Shown: in pieces, positions 11,262 to 53,752 of the stretch | Layout of the letters: each line of letters begins with the position of its first letter | Position numbering within the stretch: the stretch's first letter is position 1 | Assembly: GCF_004331485.1 (NCBI RefSeq) | Contig: NZ_SJKD01000014.1 | Span: 1 to 64,000 of the forward strand | Direction: 5' to 3' | DNA length: 64,000 nucleotides | From: Kribbella capetownensis | GTDB taxonomy: Bacteria; Actinomycetota; Actinomycetes; Propionibacteriales; Kribbellaceae | Translations under genes and position numbers: made by a program | The notes under the pieces: generated by a model | What the model was told of the DNA's origin: nothing | Database searches by the model: none | Seen by the model: the letters and a program-made list of their open reading frames with translations, nothing else

Positions 11262-12404
11262 CACCACGATCAGCGCTGCCGTGCCGAGGACTGCCGGTAG
11301 CCAGGTGACGGTCGTCGTACCGAGGTGGTCGGCTGCTTGGCCTCCGGCGAAGGCACCCAGTGCGATCGCGCCGTTGTAGACACCTACGAGTACGGCGGAC
11401 GAAGCTTCGGGGGCACTGGGTGCTGCGGCGTGGCCCCACGCCTGCGTGCTCACGCTGGTGCCGCCGTGCGAGAAGCCCCAAACAACCAGCAGAACAAGGG
11501 CTCCGGCGAGCGTCGTACCGAGGAGAGGCATGAGTACGGCGACCGTCGCGATGCCGAGGGCAATCATTCCGAGGGCACGGGTCGGGCGGAGCGATCCCGC
11601 GACGAAGTTTCCGATGACGCCGGCCACGCCGTACGCGAGGAGCAAGGTGCCGATGAGGGCGGGTGTGATGCCGGCCTGCTTCTCGAGCAGCGGACGCACG
11701 TACGTGTAGGCGGCGAAGTGGCCGGTGACGAGGAGTGCGACCAGGGCCAGCCCGACGCGCAGTTGCTTGATCTTGAGGACTTCCGCGACGTCGCTCAGCC
11801 GGACCGCCTTCTCAGCGGATAGCGGAGGCAGGAAGAGCGCGAGAGCGGCGGCGAGCGTTGCGGACAATACGCCGACGGCGGCGAAGGCCCAGCGCCAGCC
11901 GACCAGTTCACCGACGTACGCGCCGGCCGGGATCCCCAGTACAGAAGCGATTCCGATGCCGCTGAAGATGAGCGAGGTCGCCGGTCCGGCCGCGTGCGCC
12001 GGTACGACGCGACGCGCGAGGCCGATCGTGAACAGCCAGACACCGCCGAGCGAGATGCCGAAGACGACGCGGGCGATCATCAGTACGCCGAAGGTCGGGG
12101 CCGCCGCCGCGAGGAGGCTCGCGGCGGCGAGGAGCACCATCAGCCCGACCATCACGATGCGGCGGTCGAGCTTGCCCAGCACCAGCGGGAGGATCGGCGA
12201 GGCCAGCGCGGACACCACACCGGTGACGGTCAGGCTGAGGCCCGCCGTACCTTCACTGACCTGCAGGCTCGACCCGATCGGGGTGAGCAGACCGACCGGC
12301 AGCATCTCGGCGGTGACCACGGTGAACACGGTCGCCGCCATCACCACTGGAGGCGCCCAGCCGCGGGTGGCCGGTGCGACCTGGTCGGCGCAGATTGTCG
12401 TCAT
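11235..12404 (-). CDS. DHA1-type MFS transporter
   Basis: A 389-residue MFS protein with 12 hydrophobic segments, resembling AraJ/PbuE/YdhP-type exporters ([17 protein letters not shown] near helix 1; [17 protein letters not shown] between helices 5 and 6). The ATG at 12402-12404 (MTTICADQ) is chosen over an upstream ATG because it leaves a promoter region between this gene and the divergent LysR gene. Substrate unknown; an exported metabolite or drug is likely, and the adjacent LysR probably controls it. Confidence 0.85.
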
Positions 12405-25158: not shown

Positions 25159-27444
25159 ATGAGCACATCCGAGCGCAACCGCCCACGCACCCTCGCCGAG
25201 GCCCTGCGTACCTGGGACGACGCTGCGCTCGGTCTACTGCTCCAGCGTCGCCCGGATCTGGCGATGCCTATCCCCGCGGACACCGGCCAGCTCGCGGCGC
25301 GAGCCACGACGAACGCGTCCGCCGCGCGGGCGATCAACCGGCTCGACGAGTTCGGCGTCGATCTGCTGGAGTCGCTGTCGGCGCTGCCGGAGCCGGTGAA
25401 CCTGGCCGCGCTGGCGACCGGAGTGGCGCAGCCCGTCGAGGTGGTCCGGCCTCGGGTGGACGAACTGCTGAAGCTCGCGTTGGTGTGGGGCACGGAGGAC
25501 GACCTGCGTCCGATCCGCGCCGTCCACGAGCTGCTCGGTCCGACGCCGGCCGGGCTCGGACCGGTAACCACGAGGCACTTCGGCGATCTGGACCAGCTGA
25601 TCGAGGACGCCGGGCCGGACGCGCGTGAGGTGCTCGCGAAGCTGACATGGGGTCCGCCGACCGGCTCGGTGGAGAAGGCTGAGCGTCCGGTGACGATCGC
25701 CTCCGCCCGTACGCCGGTTGAGCGGTTGCTGGCACGCGGTCTCGTCGTACCGAAGGATGCGAACACCGTCGTTCTGCCGCGGCAGATCGGACTGCACCTG
25801 CGGGGTGGGCGAGTGCTGGCGTCGACTCGGCCAACGCCGCCGCCGCTCGATGGCAAGACCGTTTCTGCGTCGATCGCGGACCGGGCGGCTGCTGGTGCGG
25901 CGCTCGACCTTGTCCGGCAGGTGGATCGGGCTCTGGAGCAGCTGGGGACCGAGCCACCGCCGGTGCTGCGGACCGGTGGCATCGGAGTGCGTGAGCTGCG
26001 CAGTCTGGCCGGGAAGATCGGTGCGGACGAGCAGACGACCGCTGCGGTGCTGGAGTTCGCGTACGCCGCCGGACTGGTTGCTGCGGCTGAGATCGGGACG
26101 AGTGAGTTCTGGCTGCCGACAAGCGCGTACGACGACTGGCTGGACCTGAACCTGGCACATCGGTGGGCTCAGCTGGTGTCGGCCTGGTTCACCGGGATGC
26201 GGGCGATCGGACTGATCGGCCGGCGTGACAGTGGTGGTGCGACGGCTGCTGCGCGCGAGCGGCTGATCAACGCGCTCGCACCGGATCTGGAGCGGTTGCT
26301 GGCGCCTGAGGTCCGGGTGCTGACACTGCAGGCGCTGTCGAAGGCCGACGCTGGTTCGGCGCCAGCCCCGGAGTCAGTGGTCACCTGGGTGGCGTGGCAT
26401 CGGCCCCGACGTGGCGGGCAGTTCCGCGACGATCTGGTCGAGTGGACGATCACCGAGGCCGCTCTGCTGGGTCTGACCGGTCTTGGTGCATTGGCGCAGC
26501 ATGCGCGGCCGCTGCTCGACGCGGAGCCGACGGTGGACGATCTGGCCGAGGCGATCAGCCCGCTGGTGCCGGAGCCGGTGTCCGAAGTGTTGCTGCAGGC
26601 CGATCTGACCGCGGTCGCGCCCGGTCCGCTGGTGCGGGTGGTGCAGGACGAGCTGTCCGCCATGGCTGACGTCGAGTCGCAGGGCGGTGCGGCCGTCTAC
26701 CGGTTCAGCGAGGCGTCGGTACGGCGTGCGTTCGACCTCGGGCGGACCGCGGATCAGCTGCACAAGTGGCTGGCTGAGCACTCGCGTACACCGGTGCCTC
26801 AGCCGCTGACGTACCTGATCGACGACGTTGCCCGGCGGCACGGCGTACTCCGGCTTGGTACGGCGTCGACGTACCTGCGGTGTGATGATGAGGATGTGCT
26901 GACGCAGCTGCTCAGCTCCAACCTGCCGGGTATTCGGTTCCGGCGGCTGGCGCCGACGGTGGTGGTGTCGCCGTCACCGCCGGACATGGTGCTGAGCCGG
27001 CTGCGTGAGGCGGGGCTGGCGCCGCTCGCCGAGACGTTCGATGGGGTCATCCATGTGACCAGTGGTGGGACACGTCGGGGTGACACGCCACGGCGCCGTT
27101 CCAGCCGGGACTTCGCGGACAGCGCGGTCGACCTGACCGACGAGCAGGTCAAGGCGGTGATCGAGAAGGTCCGCGCCGGCGACCGCATCGCCGCTGAGCG
27201 CCCCGCCGACGAGGGTCTGATCGAGCCAATCGCCCCGGCCGAGACCATCGCCGTACTGACCAACGCGGCCGAGTCCCACACCCGCACCTGGATCTCGTAC
27301 GTCGACCACAACGGCACCGCCTCCGAACGCATCGTCGAGCCGGTCCGAGTCGCCGACGGCTGGCTCACCGCCTACGAAGACACCACCGACCACCCCCGCA
27401 CCTACGCCCTCCACCGCATCTCCACAGCCCGAGTCGTGGAGTGA
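25159..27444 (+). CDS. Helicase-associated/WYL-like protein, XPB partner
   Basis: A 761-residue protein of the actinobacterial helicase-associated family normally found next to XPB. It has repeated winged-helix-like segments in the first 350 residues, a Helicase_C_3-type domain at about 530-640 (VARRHGVLRLGTASTYLRCDDE..., LSRLREAGLAPLAE) and a WYL-like C-terminus (WISYVDHNGTASERIVEP). No Walker A is present, so it is not itself an ATPase. It is probably co-expressed with XPB, which starts 107 bp downstream. Molecular role is unknown. Confidence 0.82.
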   Translation: MSTSERNRPRTLAEALRTWDDAALGLLLQRRPDLAMPIPADTGQLAARATTNASAARAINRLDEFGVDLLESLSALPEPVNLAALATGVAQPVEVVRPRVDELLKLALVWGTEDDLRPIRAVHELLGPTPAGLGPVTTRHFGDLDQLIEDAGPDAREVLAKLTWGPPTGSVEKAERPVTIASARTPVERLLARGLVVPKDANTVVLPRQIGLHLRGGRVLASTRPTPPPLDGKTVSASIADRAAAGAALDLVRQVDRALEQLGTEPPPVLRTGGIGVRELRSLAGKIGADEQTTAAVLEFAYAAGLVAAAEIGTSEFWLPTSAYDDWLDLNLAHRWAQLVSAWFTGMRAIGLIGRRDSGGATAAARERLINALAPDLERLLAPEVRVLTLQALSKADAGSAPAPESVVTWVAWHRPRRGGQFRDDLVEWTITEAALLGLTGLGALAQHARPLLDAEPTVDDLAEAISPLVPEPVSEVLLQADLTAVAPGPLVRVVQDELSAMADVESQGGAAVYRFSEASVRRAFDLGRTADQLHKWLAEHSRTPVPQPLTYLIDDVARRHGVLRLGTASTYLRCDDEDVLTQLLSSNLPGIRFRRLAPTVVVSPSPPDMVLSRLREAGLAPLAETFDGVIHVTSGGTRRGDTPRRRSSRDFADSAVDLTDEQVKAVIEKVRAGDRIAAERPADEGLIEPIAPAETIAVLTNAAESHTRTWISYVDHNGTASERIVEPVRVADGWLTAYEDTTDHPRTYALHRISTARVVE

Positions 27445-27551
27445 GCTGGCCGCCGTCCTTTCATCTCTTCCTTCGGACGCATGTGCCGCGGTCAGTCGCC
27501 CACTTGCAGGACGAGGCACAATGGAAGGTCGGACACCGAATGGGAGATGCA

Positions 27552-29192
27552 GTGACAGACGGTCCTTTGATTGTGCAGTCCGACAAGACGCTTTTGCTGG
27601 AGACTGCGCATCCGGACGCCAACGACTGCCGGAAGGCCATTGCGCCGTTCTCCGAGTTGGAGCGCGCGCCGGAGCATGTGCACACCTATCGGCTGACGCC
27701 GCTGGGGTTGTGGAACGCTCGGGCGGCCGGGCACGACGCCGAGCAGGTAATCGACGTACTGCTGCGCTACAGCCGCTACCCCGTCCCGCACTCCCTGCTC
27801 GTGGACATCGCGGAAACGCTGGACCGGTACGGGCGGCTGCGGCTGGAGAAGCACCCGCAGCACGGACTGGTGCTGGTGACGACCGACCGGCCGGTTCTGG
27901 AGGAGGTGCTCCGCAGCGCCAAGGTCAAGCCGATGCTGGGCGATCGCATCGACGACGACACCGTCCTTGTGCACCCCTCGGAGCGCGGTCACCTCAAGCA
28001 GACACTGCTCAAGCTCGGCTGGCCGGCCGAGGACCTCGCCGGGTACGTCGACGGCGAGACGCACAAGATCGAGCTGGTGCGTGACGGCTGGGACGTGCGC
28101 CCGTACCAGCAGCAGGCGGTGGACTCGTTCTGGCACGGCGGCTCCGGTGTCGTCGTACTCCCCTGTGGCGCCGGCAAGACGATCGTCGGCGCGGCAGCGA
28201 TGGCGCAGGCGTCCGCGACCACGCTGATCCTGGTCACCAACACGGTGTCCGCGCGGCAGTGGAAGGACGAGCTGATGCGCCGCACCAGCCTGACCGAGGA
28301 CGAGATCGGCGAGTACTCCGGTGCCCGCAAGGAGATCCGCCCGGTCACCATCGCGACGTACCAGGTGATGACGACGCGCCGGAAGGGCGTGTACTCGCAC
28401 CTGGAGCTGTTCGACGCGCGCGACTGGGGCCTGATCGTGTACGACGAGGTGCACCTGCTGCCGGCGCCGATCTTCCGGATGACCGCGGACCTGCAGACCC
28501 GGCGACGGATCGGCCTGACCGCGACCCTGGTCCGCGAGGACGGGCGCGAGGGTGACGTGTTCTCGCTGATCGGCCCGAAGCGGTACGACGCGCCGTGGAA
28601 GGACATCGAGGCGCAGGGCTGGATCGCACCGGCCGACTGTGTTGAGGTGCGAGTGGACCTGGAGCAGACCGAGCGGTTCGTGTACGCGACGGCTGAGCCG
28701 GAGGACCGCTACCGCTTGGCCGCGTCGACCCCGGCGAAGTCCCGGCTGGTACGGCGGATCGCCGACCACCACGCGGGTGAGCCGCTGCTGGTGATCGGGC
28801 AGTACATCGACCAGCTGGACGAGCTCGGCGAGCGGCTGGAATGCCCGGTGATCAAGGGCGAGACGACGGTCCGCGAACGGCAGCGGCTCTTCGACGCGTT
28901 CCGCAAGGGCGAGATCGACCGCCTGGTGGTCAGCAAGGTCGCCAACTTCTCCATCGACCTGCCCGAGGCCTCCGTCGCGATCCAGGTCTCCGGCACGTTC
29001 GGCTCCCGCCAGGAGGAGGCCCAGCGCCTGGGCCGGGTCCTCCGCCCCAAGGGCGACGGCCGCACCGCGCGCTTCTACTCCATCGTCGCCCGCGACACCG
29101 TGGACGCCGAATTCGCCGCCCACCGCCAGCGCTTCCTGGCCGAGCAAGGCTACGCGTACACGATCGTCGACGCCGAGAACCTCTTCGCCTGA
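27552..29192 (+). CDS. xpb: DNA repair helicase XPB
   Basis: A 546-residue SF2 helicase closely resembling mycobacterial XPB (start MTDGPLIVQSDKT). Motifs: Walker A PCGAGKT, DEVH box YDEVHLL, GLTATLVREDGRE (motif III with the XPB RED loop) and QRLGRVLRPK (motif VI). It is a 3'-5' DNA helicase proposed for nucleotide-excision repair. The GTG at 27552 is chosen because GGGAG lies 5 bases upstream and the product matches the mycobacterial N-terminus. Its stop codon TGA is completed by the terminal bases of the inserted element that follows. Confidence 0.93.
   Translation: MTDGPLIVQSDKTLLLETAHPDANDCRKAIAPFSELERAPEHVHTYRLTPLGLWNARAAGHDAEQVIDVLLRYSRYPVPHSLLVDIAETLDRYGRLRLEKHPQHGLVLVTTDRPVLEEVLRSAKVKPMLGDRIDDDTVLVHPSERGHLKQTLLKLGWPAEDLAGYVDGETHKIELVRDGWDVRPYQQQAVDSFWHGGSGVVVLPCGAGKTIVGAAAMAQASATTLILVTNTVSARQWKDELMRRTSLTEDEIGEYSGARKEIRPVTIATYQVMTTRRKGVYSHLELFDARDWGLIVYDEVHLLPAPIFRMTADLQTRRRIGLTATLVREDGREGDVFSLIGPKRYDAPWKDIEAQGWIAPADCVEVRVDLEQTERFVYATAEPEDRYRLAASTPAKSRLVRRIADHHAGEPLLVIGQYIDQLDELGERLECPVIKGETTVRERQRLFDAFRKGEIDRLVVSKVANFSIDLPEASVAIQVSGTFGSRQEEAQRLGRVLRPKGDGRTARFYSIVARDTVDAEFAAHRQRFLAEQGYAYTIVDAENLFA
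29184..29190. repeat. Left 7-bp direct repeat, candidate target-site duplication
   Basis: TTCGCCT immediately before the inserted cassette; the identical sequence follows its other end at 30309-30315. It codes the end of XPB (Phe-Ala and the T of the stop). Confidence 0.65.
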
Positions 29193-29288
29193 GGGCCGTA
29201 CAGCTCGACAGGTGGTGTGCTCGGGTGCGTCGATCGAGCAGGCTCGGCGAGGCGTCACCGGCTCATGCAGCGGGTGACACCTCCTGTC
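29192..29288 (+). repeat. Left terminal inverted repeat
   Basis: Outer arm agggccgtacagctcgacag plus one g (29192-29212) and inner arm ggtgacacctcctgtc (29273-29288), matched in reverse by the right end. The intervening 60 bp share shorter blocks such as a cggctc core with the other side. The last 9 codons of the nuclease gene lie in this repeat. Confidence 0.72.
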
Positions 29289-30225
29289 CGTGTGCACGGC
29301 CTCGCTGCGCCAACGCAGCACGGATCGTTGCGACGACCCAGGCCGGGTCTCCGATGATGTGCTCATAGGTGAGCCGGAGCACCAACCACCCGGCCGCCAC
29401 CAGCTCGTCGTACCGATGGCAGTCAGCAGCGAAGTCCCGCCGGGACCCGTGGAACGCGAAGCCGTCCGCTTCCAGCGCCACCCGCGCCACGCGATGTCCC
29501 AGGTCGACCCTTGCCCGGAACAACCCGTTGGTCACCGGTACCTGCGGCTCGAAGCCGTCGATGCCCTCGGTGATGAGGAGCGCCCGGAGCATGGACTCCA
29601 GAATGCTGCCGGACAAGCCAGTCGCCGCGAGGGCTGTTCGGCGAGCGTTCGGGGATCCTGGCCCGCGCATCGCGATGGCGGCGGCGAGGAGCTCTTCGCG
29701 ATTCAGATACCCGGTAGCGAGCGCCGCGTCAGCGACGGCCAGCGCTTCGCCGAACGGCAGAACTCGGGCGCAGTCGACCACCGTCCGCAGTAACGAGGTG
29801 CTCCGGTTCCGTCGCTCGTCCGCGTCGACCGCCGCCCAATGCAGAACGGCCGGCGGCCCCGGACGCGGATGACGGTTGGGCGGAAGGGTGACATGCGGCT
29901 TTTCCGGCACCACCAGGAGCGGAAGCTGCCATGTTCTCGCGGCACTCAGATGCGAGCGCACACCGTCGTACGCGAGCGCTGCCGCCAGATCCGCCGGCAG
30001 CTCCGGCAGGGCGTACATCCCCAACGCGATTCGCCGCACCTCTCCACGCTCGAGCGCTGCCGCGACAGCTCGTCGAGACGTCAGTGCCGACAACTCGGCG
30101 AAGGTAGCCCACCCACCGAGACGGGCAAGGACTTCAGCGGGCGATTCCACCCTGGGATGGTGCCTGAAATCGGTCGGATCGTGACGTGGGTTGTCCACAG
30201 CGGGCATCTCGACAGGAGGTGTCAC
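29263..30225 (-). CDS. AbiEi-like winged-HTH plus DUF559 nuclease
   Basis: A 320-residue protein. Residues about 28-80 form an AbiEi_4-type winged helix (VLARLGGWATFAELSALTSR...). The middle resembles the AbiEi C-terminal region. Residues about 215-310 form a DUF559 Vsr-like PD-(D/E)XK nuclease fold, with VALEADGFAFHG (E and D/H) and DCHRYDELVAAGWLVLRLTYEHI. Similar proteins are often multi-copy in actinobacterial genomes. The GTG start and the stop both sit inside the terminal repeats of the cassette. No AbiEii-type toxin is adjacent. Nuclease activity is inferred from fold motifs only. Confidence 0.8.
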   Translation of the reverse strand: MTPPVEMPAVDNPRHDPTDFRHHPRVESPAEVLARLGGWATFAELSALTSRRAVAAALERGEVRRIALGMYALPELPADLAAALAYDGVRSHLSAARTWQLPLLVVPEKPHVTLPPNRHPRPGPPAVLHWAAVDADERRNRSTSLLRTVVDCARVLPFGEALAVADAALATGYLNREELLAAAIAMRGPGSPNARRTALAATGLSGSILESMLRALLITEGIDGFEPQVPVTNGLFRARVDLGHRVARVALEADGFAFHGSRRDFAADCHRYDELVAAGWLVLRLTYEHIIGDPAWVVATIRAALAQRGRAHGQEVSPAA

Positions 30226-30307
30226 CGCCGAGCGAGCCGATGCACGCTCGGCCGACCCGCGACAGGCCCCTGAGCAGCCGAGACGTCCTGTCGAGCTGTA
30301 CGGCCCT
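30211..30307 (-). repeat. Right terminal inverted repeat
   Basis: Reverse counterpart of the left end: inner arm gacaggaggtgtcacc (30211-30226) and outer arm 30287-30307. It contains the GTG start and first five codons of the nuclease gene and supplies the final bases of the GntR gene. Confidence 0.72.
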
Positions 30308-31016
30308 ATTCGCCTAGACGGGTGTGGATTCCGTTGAAGTGGCTTTTCATGGAGCGGGCGAAGGCGTCCGAGTTGCCGGACTCCAGGGCGAGCAGGAGGT
30401 CTCGGTGCCAGGCGGCGGCGTCCGCAGGGGTGTAGCGGGCGCCGGGTAGGCGGGCGTCGACCTGGGCGAAGGTTCGCCAGAAGACGGACAGCAGGTCGAT
30501 CACGAGCGCGTTGCCCAGGGGTTCGTAGAGGGCCTGGTGGAAGGCCCAGTCCTCGTCCGGGAAGTACTCGCCGGACCGGGCCTTCGCCTCCATGCGTTCG
30601 ACGATCGGCTCCAGCGCGTCGTACCCGTGCGACTTGAAGTACGCGACCACGTCGTCCGCCATGCCGACCTCGATGGCCTGGCGGACCTCCAGCACGTTCT
30701 GTACGTCGCGCAGGTCGCCGGCCATCGACTGCGACATCCGGAACGCGAGCCCGTCCTCCAGCGACTGCAGTGACACCTCGCCGACGTACGTCCCGTAGCC
30801 GTGCCGGATCTCGATGATCCCGACCGCCTGCAGTGCCTTCATGGCCTCGCGCAACGGGTGCCGGCCGACACCGAGCTGAGCCATCAGCTCCTGCTCGTTG
30901 GGTAGCGGGTCACCCGCCTTGAGCCCGCGTTCCAGGATGTACGACTTCATCTGGTCGCGAATGAAGGACTGATTCCCCGCCGCACCGCGTGCCCGGCTGA
31001 GCCCACCCGTTGTCAC
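30306..31016 (-). CDS. GntR/FadR-family regulator of the sialidase cluster
   Basis: A 236-residue GntR regulator: winged HTH at about residues 18-80 (GLKAGDPLPNEQELMAQLGVGRHPLREAM) and an all-helical FCD ligand domain (EDWAFHQALYEPLGN; His/Asp metal ligands). The GTG at 31014-31016 follows GAGGAGG. It is the last gene of an operon-like row (sialidase, aldolase, regulator) and probably binds the palindrome at 33064-33083. Its stop codon TAG is formed by the tip of the adjacent inserted element, so its original C-terminus may have been different. Confidence 0.87.
   Translation of the reverse strand: MTTGGLSRARGAAGNQSFIRDQMKSYILERGLKAGDPLPNEQELMAQLGVGRHPLREAMKALQAVGIIEIRHGYGTYVGEVSLQSLEDGLAFRMSQSMAGDLRDVQNVLEVRQAIEVGMADDVVAYFKSHGYDALEPIVERMEAKARSGEYFPDEDWAFHQALYEPLGNALVIDLLSVFWRTFAQVDARLPGARYTPADAAAWHRDLLLALESGNSDAFARSMKSHFNGIHTRLGE
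30309..30315. repeat. Right 7-bp direct repeat, candidate target-site duplication
   Basis: TTCGCCT immediately after the cassette, identical to 29184-29190. It lies in the last codons of the GntR gene. Confidence 0.65.
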
Positions 31017-52010: not shown

Positions 52011-52059
52011 ACCCGCCATCATCCCGCACAGCCCGGCCCCTCCCCCATCAGTCCCACGT

Positions 52060-52154
52060 GCTAAGGACAGGAGGTAGTCGCGTCGGCCGCCCCGCGTTCA
52101 CGCGGGCGCGAGCGCGGGGCGGCACCAAACTGGGCACTACCTCCTGTCCTTAGC
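52060..52154. repeat. 95-bp cruciform-forming element
   Basis: A perfect 19-bp outer inverted repeat (52060-52078 and 52136-52154; gctaaggacaggaggtagt and its complement) encloses a perfect 11-bp inner repeat gccgccccgcg (52086-52096) / cgcggggcggc (52113-52123), and within that cccgcg-ttca-cgcggg (52091-52106). It lies between divergent genes, so it is not a terminator of either. It resembles a small palindromic mobile or REP-like unit. Confidence 0.6.
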
Positions 52155-52194
52155 GCGGAAGCGGCCCCAGAAATAGGTCTTGCACTCCCGCCAG

Positions 52195-52244
52195 GTCTTC
52201 TGTATCGTTTTTCTAGAACGATTTAGAAGAACGATACAGAAGAC
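52195..52244. promoter_or_regulatory. LacI-type operator with three ATCGTT boxes
   Basis: Perfect 15-bp inverted repeat gtcttctgtatcgtt (52195-52209) / aacgatacagaagac (52230-52244) with a 20-bp spacer that holds another AACGAT (52217-52222). It ends 35 bp before the LacI start, a likely autoregulatory site. The AT-rich content stands out locally. Confidence 0.65.
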
Positions 52245-52279
52245 TGTCACCAGGCAGTCCACGACCGGGAGGCGGAGAG

Positions 52280-53317
52280 ATGGCGGGAGTCACGCTCAAG
52301 ACTGTGGCCAAGGCTGTTGGTGTGTCGCCGTCGACTGTGTCCAACGCTTACAACAAGCCGGATCAGCTGTCCGTCGCCCTGCGCGAGCGGATCCTGAACA
52401 CGGCCCGCGAGCTGGGGTACTCGGGACCGGACGCATCCGCACGCGCTCTGCGCAGCGGCAAGGCCGGGGCGGTCGGGGTGCTCTTCACCGACAAGCTCGC
52501 CTACGCGTTCTCGGACCCGTACGCGGTCGGCTTCCTGGCCGGTCTGGCCGAGGTCGCCGAGGAGTTCAGCACCAGCCTGCTGCTGATGCCGCTCAGCTCG
52601 ACCGACATCGCGGGTGGCAGCAACGCAGTGCAGCAGGCGGCCATCGACGCGGCAGCGATCTTCTGCGTGCCGAGCGGCAACCCGGCGCTGGACATCCTCG
52701 CGAACCGCGGCATCCCCGCCGTGTCCACGGACCGAGGCGACCACCCGGACCTGTCCTGGGTCGCGATCGACGAGGTGGAAGCGGCCGCCCAGCTGGGCGA
52801 GCACCTGGCTCGGCTCGGCCACCGGGACGTGGTCGTGCTGGTCGACAACGCCGAGGCGGCCGGCGGCAATCCGGTCGAGCTCAGCGTGGACCAGGTCGGC
52901 TACACCGACTGCGAGCTGCGGATCCAGGGCCTGCAGAAGGCGATGCCCGACGCCAGGCTGCGGATCATCTCCGGCGGCCACAACGCGTTCAGTTCCGGCC
53001 GCACGGGCGCCGAATGGGTGCTCGACTCGCAGGACCGGCCGACCGCGATCGTCGGACTGAGCGACGTCCAAGCGCTCGGCGCGCTGGAGGCGATGAGGGT
53101 ACGCGGACTGATCCCGGGCCGGGACCTGACGCTGGCCGGATTCGACGACATCCCGGCGGCCGAGGCGGCTGGACTGACCACGGTCCACCAACCGATCAGG
53201 GAGAAAGGCCGTGCGGTCGGCAGGATCCTGCTGGACCCGACGGCCACCGAGCGACAGCTCCTGATGCCGACAGAGCTGATCGTCCGCGCCAGTAGCGGAC
53301 CAGCCCCGAAGGCCTGA
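52280..53317 (+). CDS. LacI-family transcriptional regulator
   Basis: A 345-residue LacI repressor: HTH at residues 1-50 (TLKTVAKAVGVSPSTVSNAYNKPDQL) with the hinge helix, then a periplasmic-binding-like sugar domain (GFDDIPAAEAAGLTTVHQPI). GGAGGCGGAGAG precedes the ATG. No sugar transporter or hydrolase adjoins it, so apart from itself its targets must be elsewhere or be the small downstream ORF. Confidence 0.9.
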   Translation: MAGVTLKTVAKAVGVSPSTVSNAYNKPDQLSVALRERILNTARELGYSGPDASARALRSGKAGAVGVLFTDKLAYAFSDPYAVGFLAGLAEVAEEFSTSLLLMPLSSTDIAGGSNAVQQAAIDAAAIFCVPSGNPALDILANRGIPAVSTDRGDHPDLSWVAIDEVEAAAQLGEHLARLGHRDVVVLVDNAEAAGGNPVELSVDQVGYTDCELRIQGLQKAMPDARLRIISGGHNAFSSGRTGAEWVLDSQDRPTAIVGLSDVQALGALEAMRVRGLIPGRDLTLAGFDDIPAAEAAGLTTVHQPIREKGRAVGRILLDPTATERQLLMPTELIVRASSGPAPKA

Positions 53318-53652: not shown

Positions 53653-53752
53653 GGACCTGCAGCACTCACCAAGCAGGCGCGCCGCGAGCGGTTCACGCTC
53701 ATCGGCAGGCTCGCACGACCCGGAACTCCGGGTTGGTGAGTGCTGCAGGTCC
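53653..53752. repeat. 100-bp long-stem hairpin element
   Basis: Perfect 19-bp inverted repeat ggacctgcagcactcacca (53653-53671) and its complement (53734-53752) around 62 bp. The loop contains an inner imperfect stem gagcg-gttca-cgctc (53686-53700). It begins 5 bp after the small ORF stop and is followed by a separate ordinary terminator, so it seems to be more than a terminator. Confidence 0.6.

Follow-up and report, generated by a model that had tools for sequence, protein, structure and literature searches.

Why should a nuclease gene lie between two complete host genes, enclosed by inverted repeats and unaccompanied by a transposase? The question is raised by a segment of DNA of the soil bacterium Kribbella capetownensis, positions 29192 to 30307 of the window (the whole stretch of 64,000 nucleotides that was analysed), in which a gene of the DUF559 family stands between an XPB/Rad25-type helicase gene and a GntR/FCD regulator gene. 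The original prediction described the segment as a mobile cassette that is bounded by terminal inverted repeats (TIRs) and sits inside the XPB stop codon, an interpretation that the analysis presented here partly supports. The reading favoured here, to which a probability of roughly 0.55 is assigned, is that the segment represents one copy of a nuclease-plus-palindrome mobile system in which the nuclease gene is flanked by units of its own. The features on which the argument depends are as follows.

29192 to 29288, no strand assigned: left palindromic unit, outer arm 29192-29212 and inner arm 29273-29288
29239 to 29246, plus strand: core-like sequence of the left unit, CAGGCTCG
30205 to 30307, no strand assigned: right palindromic unit, inner arm ~30205-30226 and outer arm 30287-30307
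30243 to 30250, plus strand: core of the right unit, CACGCTCG
29263 to 30225, minus strand: DUF559/Vsr-like nuclease with an AbiEi-like N-terminal part, longest open reading frame (ORF) of 320 amino acids
29184 to 29190, plus strand: TTCGCCT, left direct repeat, the coding end of XPB and not a target-site duplication
30309 to 30315, plus strand: TTCGCCT, right direct repeat, the end of the GntR coding sequence (gene on the other strand)
27441 to 29192, plus strand: XPB/Rad25-type helicase gene, left flank, outside the cassette
30306 to 31016, minus strand: GntR/FCD regulator gene, right flank, outside the cassette

The inverted repeats at the cassette ends are real. Both the 21-bp repeat (29192-29212 and 30287-30307) and the 16-bp repeat (29273-29288 and 30211-30226) are perfect and lie where they had been reported. 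Because the outer and inner repeats of one side pair together, what had been taken for two TIRs are two palindromes: each end of the cassette is a palindromic unit of ~97 bp in which inverted arms of ~16-20 bp enclose a spacer that varies and that often has a CACGCTCA-like core at its centre. In a motif-free palindrome scan restricted to spans of 94-104, the window yielded four matches and five shuffled windows yielded 1, 1, 0, 0 and 0, while the full span of 60-139 returned five places, namely 52061-52153, 53655-53750, the right cassette unit, and weaker matches at 12138 and 53863 that may be due to chance. The left unit contains more mismatches, falls below threshold in these motif-free scans and was recovered by motif search. 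The claim that the nuclease gene starts and stops within the repeats holds for the stop codon, which lies inside the left unit; the GTG start of the longest ORF (30225) does fall within the inner arm of the right unit, but conservation favours a GTG near 30150, ~75 nt further in, as the probable start. As had been stated, no transposase is present between the units, where the nuclease is the longest ORF and the only one scanned, the others being shorter. No Rfam match was obtained in 28900-30600 at E values up to 1.

The encoded protein combines two recognizable parts. Its score against DUF559 (PF04480) is above the cut-off (22.2 bits versus 20.6) and that against MTES_1575 below it (27.9 versus 38.2), and four scanned relatives divide evenly above and below the DUF559 cut-off; at E values up to 1 the Pfam scan returned MTES_1575, DUF559 and, below its cut-off, AbiEi_4, and no Y1 family. 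PADLOC AbiEi profiles match the first half of the protein (E 1.9e-13). The predicted structure (mean predicted local distance difference test score 91.8) comprises an AbiEi-like fold over residues 16-193 and a Vsr-like fold over residues 196-301. Specifically, the N-terminal part aligns with AbiEi 6y8q (Z 9.5, 175 aligned residues, root-mean-square deviation (rmsd) 4.6; Foldseek E 5.7e-6), and the C-terminal nuclease domain aligns with NGO0050 (3hrl, Z 12.8), the homing endonuclease I-Bth0305I (3r3p, Z 12.7, rmsd 2.3, 95 aligned residues) and Vsr (1cw0, Z 10.3), the sequence match to EDxHD homing endonucleases being weak (E 0.37). H250, D259 and R262 do not vary among 25 aligned relatives, and E201, D232 and E243 hardly vary (numbering of the 311-residue row), all six being residues that we take, from the nuclease family, to be catalytic. 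The ratio of nonsynonymous to synonymous substitution rates is 0.11-0.20 in seven gene pairs, which indicates purifying selection on the gene. No H-hydrophobic-H (HUH) motif occurs in the window protein or in 84 of the 85 proteins of clades A, B and C defined below.

Are the palindromes a peculiarity of this locus, or do they belong to the gene? Thirty-eight Kribbella genomes, labelled from G000 (the genome of the window) onwards, were compared. A protein match was found in all 38, and 36 carry a gene of clade A (that of the XPB site), B or C, these labels and that of clade D having been given by hand on protein identity among the matches listed, for which reason the distant clade-D genes are under-sampled. 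The 36 genomes contribute 98 A/B/C loci, 85 of which supplied a usable reading frame, and units of the same design stand at a near-constant distance upstream of 88 of these genes and downstream of 78; 72 genes are flanked on both sides and 94 on one side or both. The suggested search for other DUF559 genes with such ends was therefore productive. Of 14 clade-D genes entered in the unit scan 12 were scored, all but one of the 12 being 28-36% identical, and units were found upstream of 2, downstream of 4, on at least one side of 5 and on both sides of 1. Since unit matches occur elsewhere in the same loci at 0.17 per 290 bp, the single-sided matches include some that arose by chance. One distant clade-D gene (L174, G033:C1:2163400-2165600) bears GCCGAGTCGTGAGAATGG-like palindromes on both sides, and a palindrome similar to these, GAGTCGTGGCGAATGGT, lies at the XPB-GntR junction of another genome (L072, G026:C3:338300-339200).

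The arms of these units correspond to the individual gene and, across genes, to its lineage. Left and right arms match at 13 or more of 14 bases in 64 of the 72 genes with both units, compared with 158 of 661 pairings between distinct members of a clade, 29 of 1,116 pairings of unlike clades and none of 360 shuffled pairings. When the arm word is placed on the protein tree (84 of the 85 rows, the long row L260 being left out), 16 changes are required, while shuffling gives a mean of 50.1 and a count as low in 0 of 200 trials. The core, by comparison, recurs across the arm classes: among 252 distinct units of all arm classes, drawn from loci chosen partly for containing such units, the hexamer CACGCT/AGCGTG occurs near the centre in 81 cases and elsewhere in the spacers in 2. 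The cores of both sides point in the same direction in 11 of the 12 scored A-clade loci, the B and C loci being mixed or unscored. Structured RNA beyond the arms was considered and rejected, as the inner region is near random when folded (60 of the 252 units; mean z -0.33, 10% below -2).

Units are also found alone, and two of these lie within the window, both of them between likely genes.

52061 to 52153, no strand assigned: solo unit, arms CTAAGGACAGGAGGTAGTC, close to those of the genome's second nuclease gene (C11:1946419)
53655 to 53750, no strand assigned: solo unit, arms ACCTGCAGCACTCACCAAGC, core TTCACGCTCA, with the arm word of the genome's third nuclease gene (C11:1237522)

Over the 38 genomes, four arm patterns gave 605, 100, 600 and 355 matches, reversed-pattern controls giving 0-2 per genome, and removal of the gene-side units leaves at least 553, 86, 578 and 331, a total of at least 1,548 loose units. 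Loose units of a class are more numerous in genomes that have a resident gene of it than in those that do not (medians 16 versus 2, 5 versus 0, 29 versus 5 and 20 versus 0), residence being scored on detected arms, so that a gene with undetected arms counts as absent. The associated p-values (2e-4, 3e-4, 1e-4 and 3e-7; 5e-5, 3e-5, 4e-5 and 2e-7 with gene-side units still counted) are uncorrected for kinship and are too small, because related genomes are not independent. The two genomes lacking any A/B/C gene gave 4, 0, 0 and 0 (G011) and 1, 2, 25 and 1 (G010) matches to the four patterns. GACAGG matches are fewer in genomes without an A gene than in sisters having one (G011 4 versus G034 18; G026 17 versus G018 41).

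Some loose units have been copied. Of the 46 GACAGG units in the window's genome 20 were examined, and seven of them, at seven places, have a common interior sequence (pairs up to 80%) and unlike flanks, from which it follows that they are copies of one another; their similarity stops ~15 bp outside the GACAGG word, with no visible duplication. An intergenic site beside a LacI-type ORF at 52280 holds a unit in 4 of 30 genomes (G000, G035, G005 and G032), and each arm word there resembles that of a gene in the same genome. The site matching 52019-52245 in G007 (L198) contains a different, larger palindromic sequence (CCTTGAGCACC...GGTGCTCAAGG), and three near-identical units stand in tandem, with a period of 207 bp, at G001:C137:440-921.

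Does the whole cassette move as well? The XPB-GntR junction holds the cassette or its remains in 14 of the 38 genomes and a lone unit in G025, with none detected in the other 23, so that the element-free junctions for which a search had been proposed do exist. Among 13 carriers, the tree of XPB and GntR groups G023 with G029, G016 and G021 (100/100) and G018 with G034 (96/95), while the nuclease gene tree unites G018 with G023 (100/100). In approximately unbiased (AU) tests of clades picked after inspection of earlier trees, the flank data reject G018 with G023 (p 6e-31), and neither flank grouping is compatible with the nuclease gene data (p 1e-58 and 6e-47). When individual sites are examined, support passes from one tree to the other at 29194-29198 on the left and at 30304-30315 on the right, isolated contrary sites lying outside at 29168, 29189, 30383, 30492, 30606 and 30632 and inside at 30284 and 30295. 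As the switch falls within ~12 bp of the tips, the cassette, as far as these sites tell, left the neighbouring genes behind when it was transferred and was exchanged at its tips; it is a discrete unit that moves between species, and in this respect the predicted mobile nuclease cassette is borne out. The lone unit of G025 has the left tip of the left unit at one end and the right tip of the right unit at the other, as would be expected from recombination between two direct units.

Taken together, these data can be accommodated by a mechanism in which the arms are the address of a nuclease lineage, with a short central core recurring across lineages. Beyond the point at which arms belong to a protein lineage, we infer that the protein would bind the arms through its N-terminal part, that the nuclease would cut in or next to a unit, and that host repair of the break might then copy or move units and, more rarely, the whole cassette. 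Such a mode would resemble that of a REPIN-RAYT pair, or of a homing endonuclease gene equipped with the palindromes that its product recognizes.

A more conventional form of homing is the first of the alternatives, and an unlikely one, although the best placed of them: the nuclease would cut an element-free junction or a resident allele, repair would copy the cassette into the break, and the palindromes would mainly protect or regulate the gene. The catalytic domain is related in fold to the EDxHD homing endonuclease, as its Z score and weak sequence match indicate, throughout the genus the gene is found at the same small set of positions, and this one junction has been entered by cassettes in different lineages. 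Homing usually co-transfers flanking DNA, whereas here the signal changes within ~12 bp of the tips, and loose units of the matching class occupy many other places. The window gene also differs from known EDxHD/Vsr homing endonuclease genes, with which it may share a role in moving its own gene, in that it stands between two complete genes and not in an intron or intein, and in that its flanking palindromic units occur alone as well.

Slightly less probable is a regulatory account, in which the AbiEi-like domain would bind the units as operators, the loose units would make up a regulon, and the nuclease domain would serve another role, such as defence. The AbiEi profile matches, the dyad arms around a core, an inner region unstructured as RNA, and the intergenic position of both loose units in the window speak for this account. 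Against it stand the unit downstream of the gene, the families of copied units and the precise transfer of the cassette; moreover, the positions of loose units are not conserved, as the site beside the LacI-type ORF illustrates, though three of four units checked in the window's genome are common to its sister species. AbiE type IV toxin-antitoxin systems share the AbiEi-like N-terminal fold, but here that part is fused to a nuclease, and the neighbours are XPB and GntR, with no adjacent AbiEii nucleotidyltransferase toxin gene.

There is little to recommend the idea that an unrelated transposase moves the gene and its units in trans, as passengers in the manner of miniature inverted-repeat transposable elements (MITEs). 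No transposase lies inside the cassette, to which the search for one was confined, and the loose units do resemble MITEs with an autonomous partner, being short, dispersed and bounded by inverted arms. Against this, the same nuclease family is found between units at the 98 loci and the arms vary together with the nuclease; unlike MITEs, the form with the gene is closed on either side by a complete unit, lacks a transposase and is accompanied by no target-site duplication that could be seen.

It is scarcely credible that a classical TIR transposon entered the XPB stop codon and duplicated a 7-bp target, for although the 21-bp inverted repeat and the TTCGCCT words just outside each end (29184-29190 and 30309-30315) are present, both copies of the word are gene ends in the element-free G007, and the carrier G035 has no such direct repeat. 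The G007 junction reads CTCTTCGCCTGATTCAGTCGCCGAGG, the XPB gene end TTCGCCTGA being adjacent to AGTCGCCGAGG, that of GntR, and since each end brings its own TCGCC word the repeat is not a duplication. Neither a transposase nor, when carriers are compared with element-free junctions, a target-site duplication was found, and palindromic units like those at the cassette ends are found singly as well, so that a simple TIR transposon or insertion sequence is not supported. The concern that GntR would have lost its stop codon in the ancestor, and that a deletion may have accompanied insertion, is likewise removed, as in the tight junctions of G032, G011, G033 and G019 the two genes overlap in CTATTCGCCTAG and both stops are kept. 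In a lacI tree (30 of the 38 genomes, a single gene of ~1 kb, G019 lying outside it), G032, G033 and G011 are nested among carriers, and their tight junctions are therefore probably losses and not the state before insertion. The cassette-less G022, G010 and G026 are also inside the carrier clade; gain or loss at this junction therefore recurs.

Other DNA is found at this junction as well. After the XPB stop, purine-rich stretches (AAGAAGGAAG...) occur in L077 (G010), L071 (G024), L039 (G015) and L072 (G026), and in G010, G024 and G015 part of the XPB gene end is repeated behind the stretch; a distinct small type of insertion may be involved. In L089 (G001:C133:24100-28400) ~3.7 kb of other DNA separates XPB from GntR, and the junction seems to be a hot spot.

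Several observations weigh against the reading of the segment as a copy of a nuclease-plus-palindrome mobile system. Firstly, 3 of the 14 cassettes found between XPB and GntR are no longer intact, two through internal deletions (G035 and G002) and one through a broken frame (G029). Secondly, several genomes contain many units although no matching gene was detected in them, examples (gene-side units being included in the counts) being CACTCA units in G010 (25), G016 (31) and G005 (22), GCCATCACA units in G029 (21) and G026 (12), GACAGG units in G001 (28) and ACGGGTAGT units in G012 (12). These could be relics of a resident gene since replaced. Thirdly, neither a target-site duplication nor a clean single insertion event was found for the loose units, and comparison of the 52061 unit with its absence in the sister species G015 gave no clean boundary; three of the four units of the window's genome that were checked are common to G015, which implies that dispersal is slow. 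Lastly, outside Kribbella strict matching of left and right arms was obtained in 10 of 25 loci, compared with 13 of 210 mismatched pairs, and two Nocardioides searches, made in 16 genomes of the order, did not find dispersed copies to be enriched. Specifically, a strict pattern for one Nocardioides gene found its two flanking units and nothing more, in 1 of the 16 genomes, and an arm word, with up to 3 mismatches allowed, was no commoner in its owner (G173, 22 matches) than in the others (10-25) or in controls. One locus of another genome (L401, G213) contains one exact and two 1-mismatch copies of the arm word of the G173 gene.

Flanking palindromes nevertheless recur outside the genus. Among 296 genomes sampled from the class a relative at E 1e-30 was found in 28, the window's own being one of these, and at 52 loci of other genera, scored under lax limits without a control and with at least one locus entered twice (L346 and L356, same result), a palindrome was found upstream in 40, downstream in 46 and on both sides in 35. 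The loci that pass the strict comparison include those of Knoellia, Quadrisphaera, Nocardioides, Tetrasphaera and Segeticoccus, and one further pass, Phycicoccus L330, pairs unlike arms and is probably due to chance. The units of Knoellia sinensis carry GTCAGGCTCA and CACGCTCAGC near their centres. Beside the gene of L338 (Nocardioides sp. Soil797), two 57-bp palindromes differ at 2 of 57 positions.

Among known systems, REPIN-RAYT pairs provide the closest comparison in layout. One account describes a resident gene, present in a single copy, that lies next to palindromic doublets and has a repeat class to itself; the repeats are extragenic and dispersed, and gene and repeat are presumed to co-evolve (PMC3116915). 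In Kribbella, similarly, the palindromes flanking the gene are dispersed in the genome, with one class per gene, and by layout alone the system would fall within the REPIN-RAYT kind. REPIN-RAYT doublets measure ~100 bp. The differences lie in the enzyme, which is a nuclease of Vsr/EDxHD fold joined to an AbiEi-like part and lacks the HUH motif of a Y1 transposase; in the units, with their 16-20-bp arms around a core; and in the precise exchange of whole cassettes between species. Because the HUH motif is absent and no intron or intein is involved, the Kribbella system is regarded as a new kind that works like a REPIN-RAYT pair. A further mark of REPIN-RAYT systems is a single-strand hairpin with a GTAG or CGTC tag, these being the tag names in the title of one paper (PMC3733652). 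The account cited above called the spread of REPINs a central and unresolved issue in 2011 (PMC3116915). In open-licence PMC text, to which the search was confined, no earlier description of a nuclease-palindrome system was found among the matches listed. A broader claim is offered tentatively, at somewhat under even odds: that this is a self-standing class of bacterial mobile DNA, consisting of a Vsr/EDxHD nuclease with an evolving address, its own class of palindromes around a shared core and dozens of satellites in its host, which hops between species as a palindrome-cut cassette and whose flanking-palindrome design is found in other actinobacterial genera.

REPIN-RAYT is the one system named here that pairs a resident bacterial enzyme with dispersed palindromes of its own. 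If the reading proposed for the Kribbella segment is true, a second, unrelated enzyme has the same layout, and this way of life would have evolved twice; a function would also be provided for a group of the actinobacterial DUF559 genes now listed as being of 'unknown function'. Moreover, the family would then constitute a natural series of nucleases whose recognition words, the arms, are legible beside each gene, and which would be useful for studies of how such enzymes choose their DNA.

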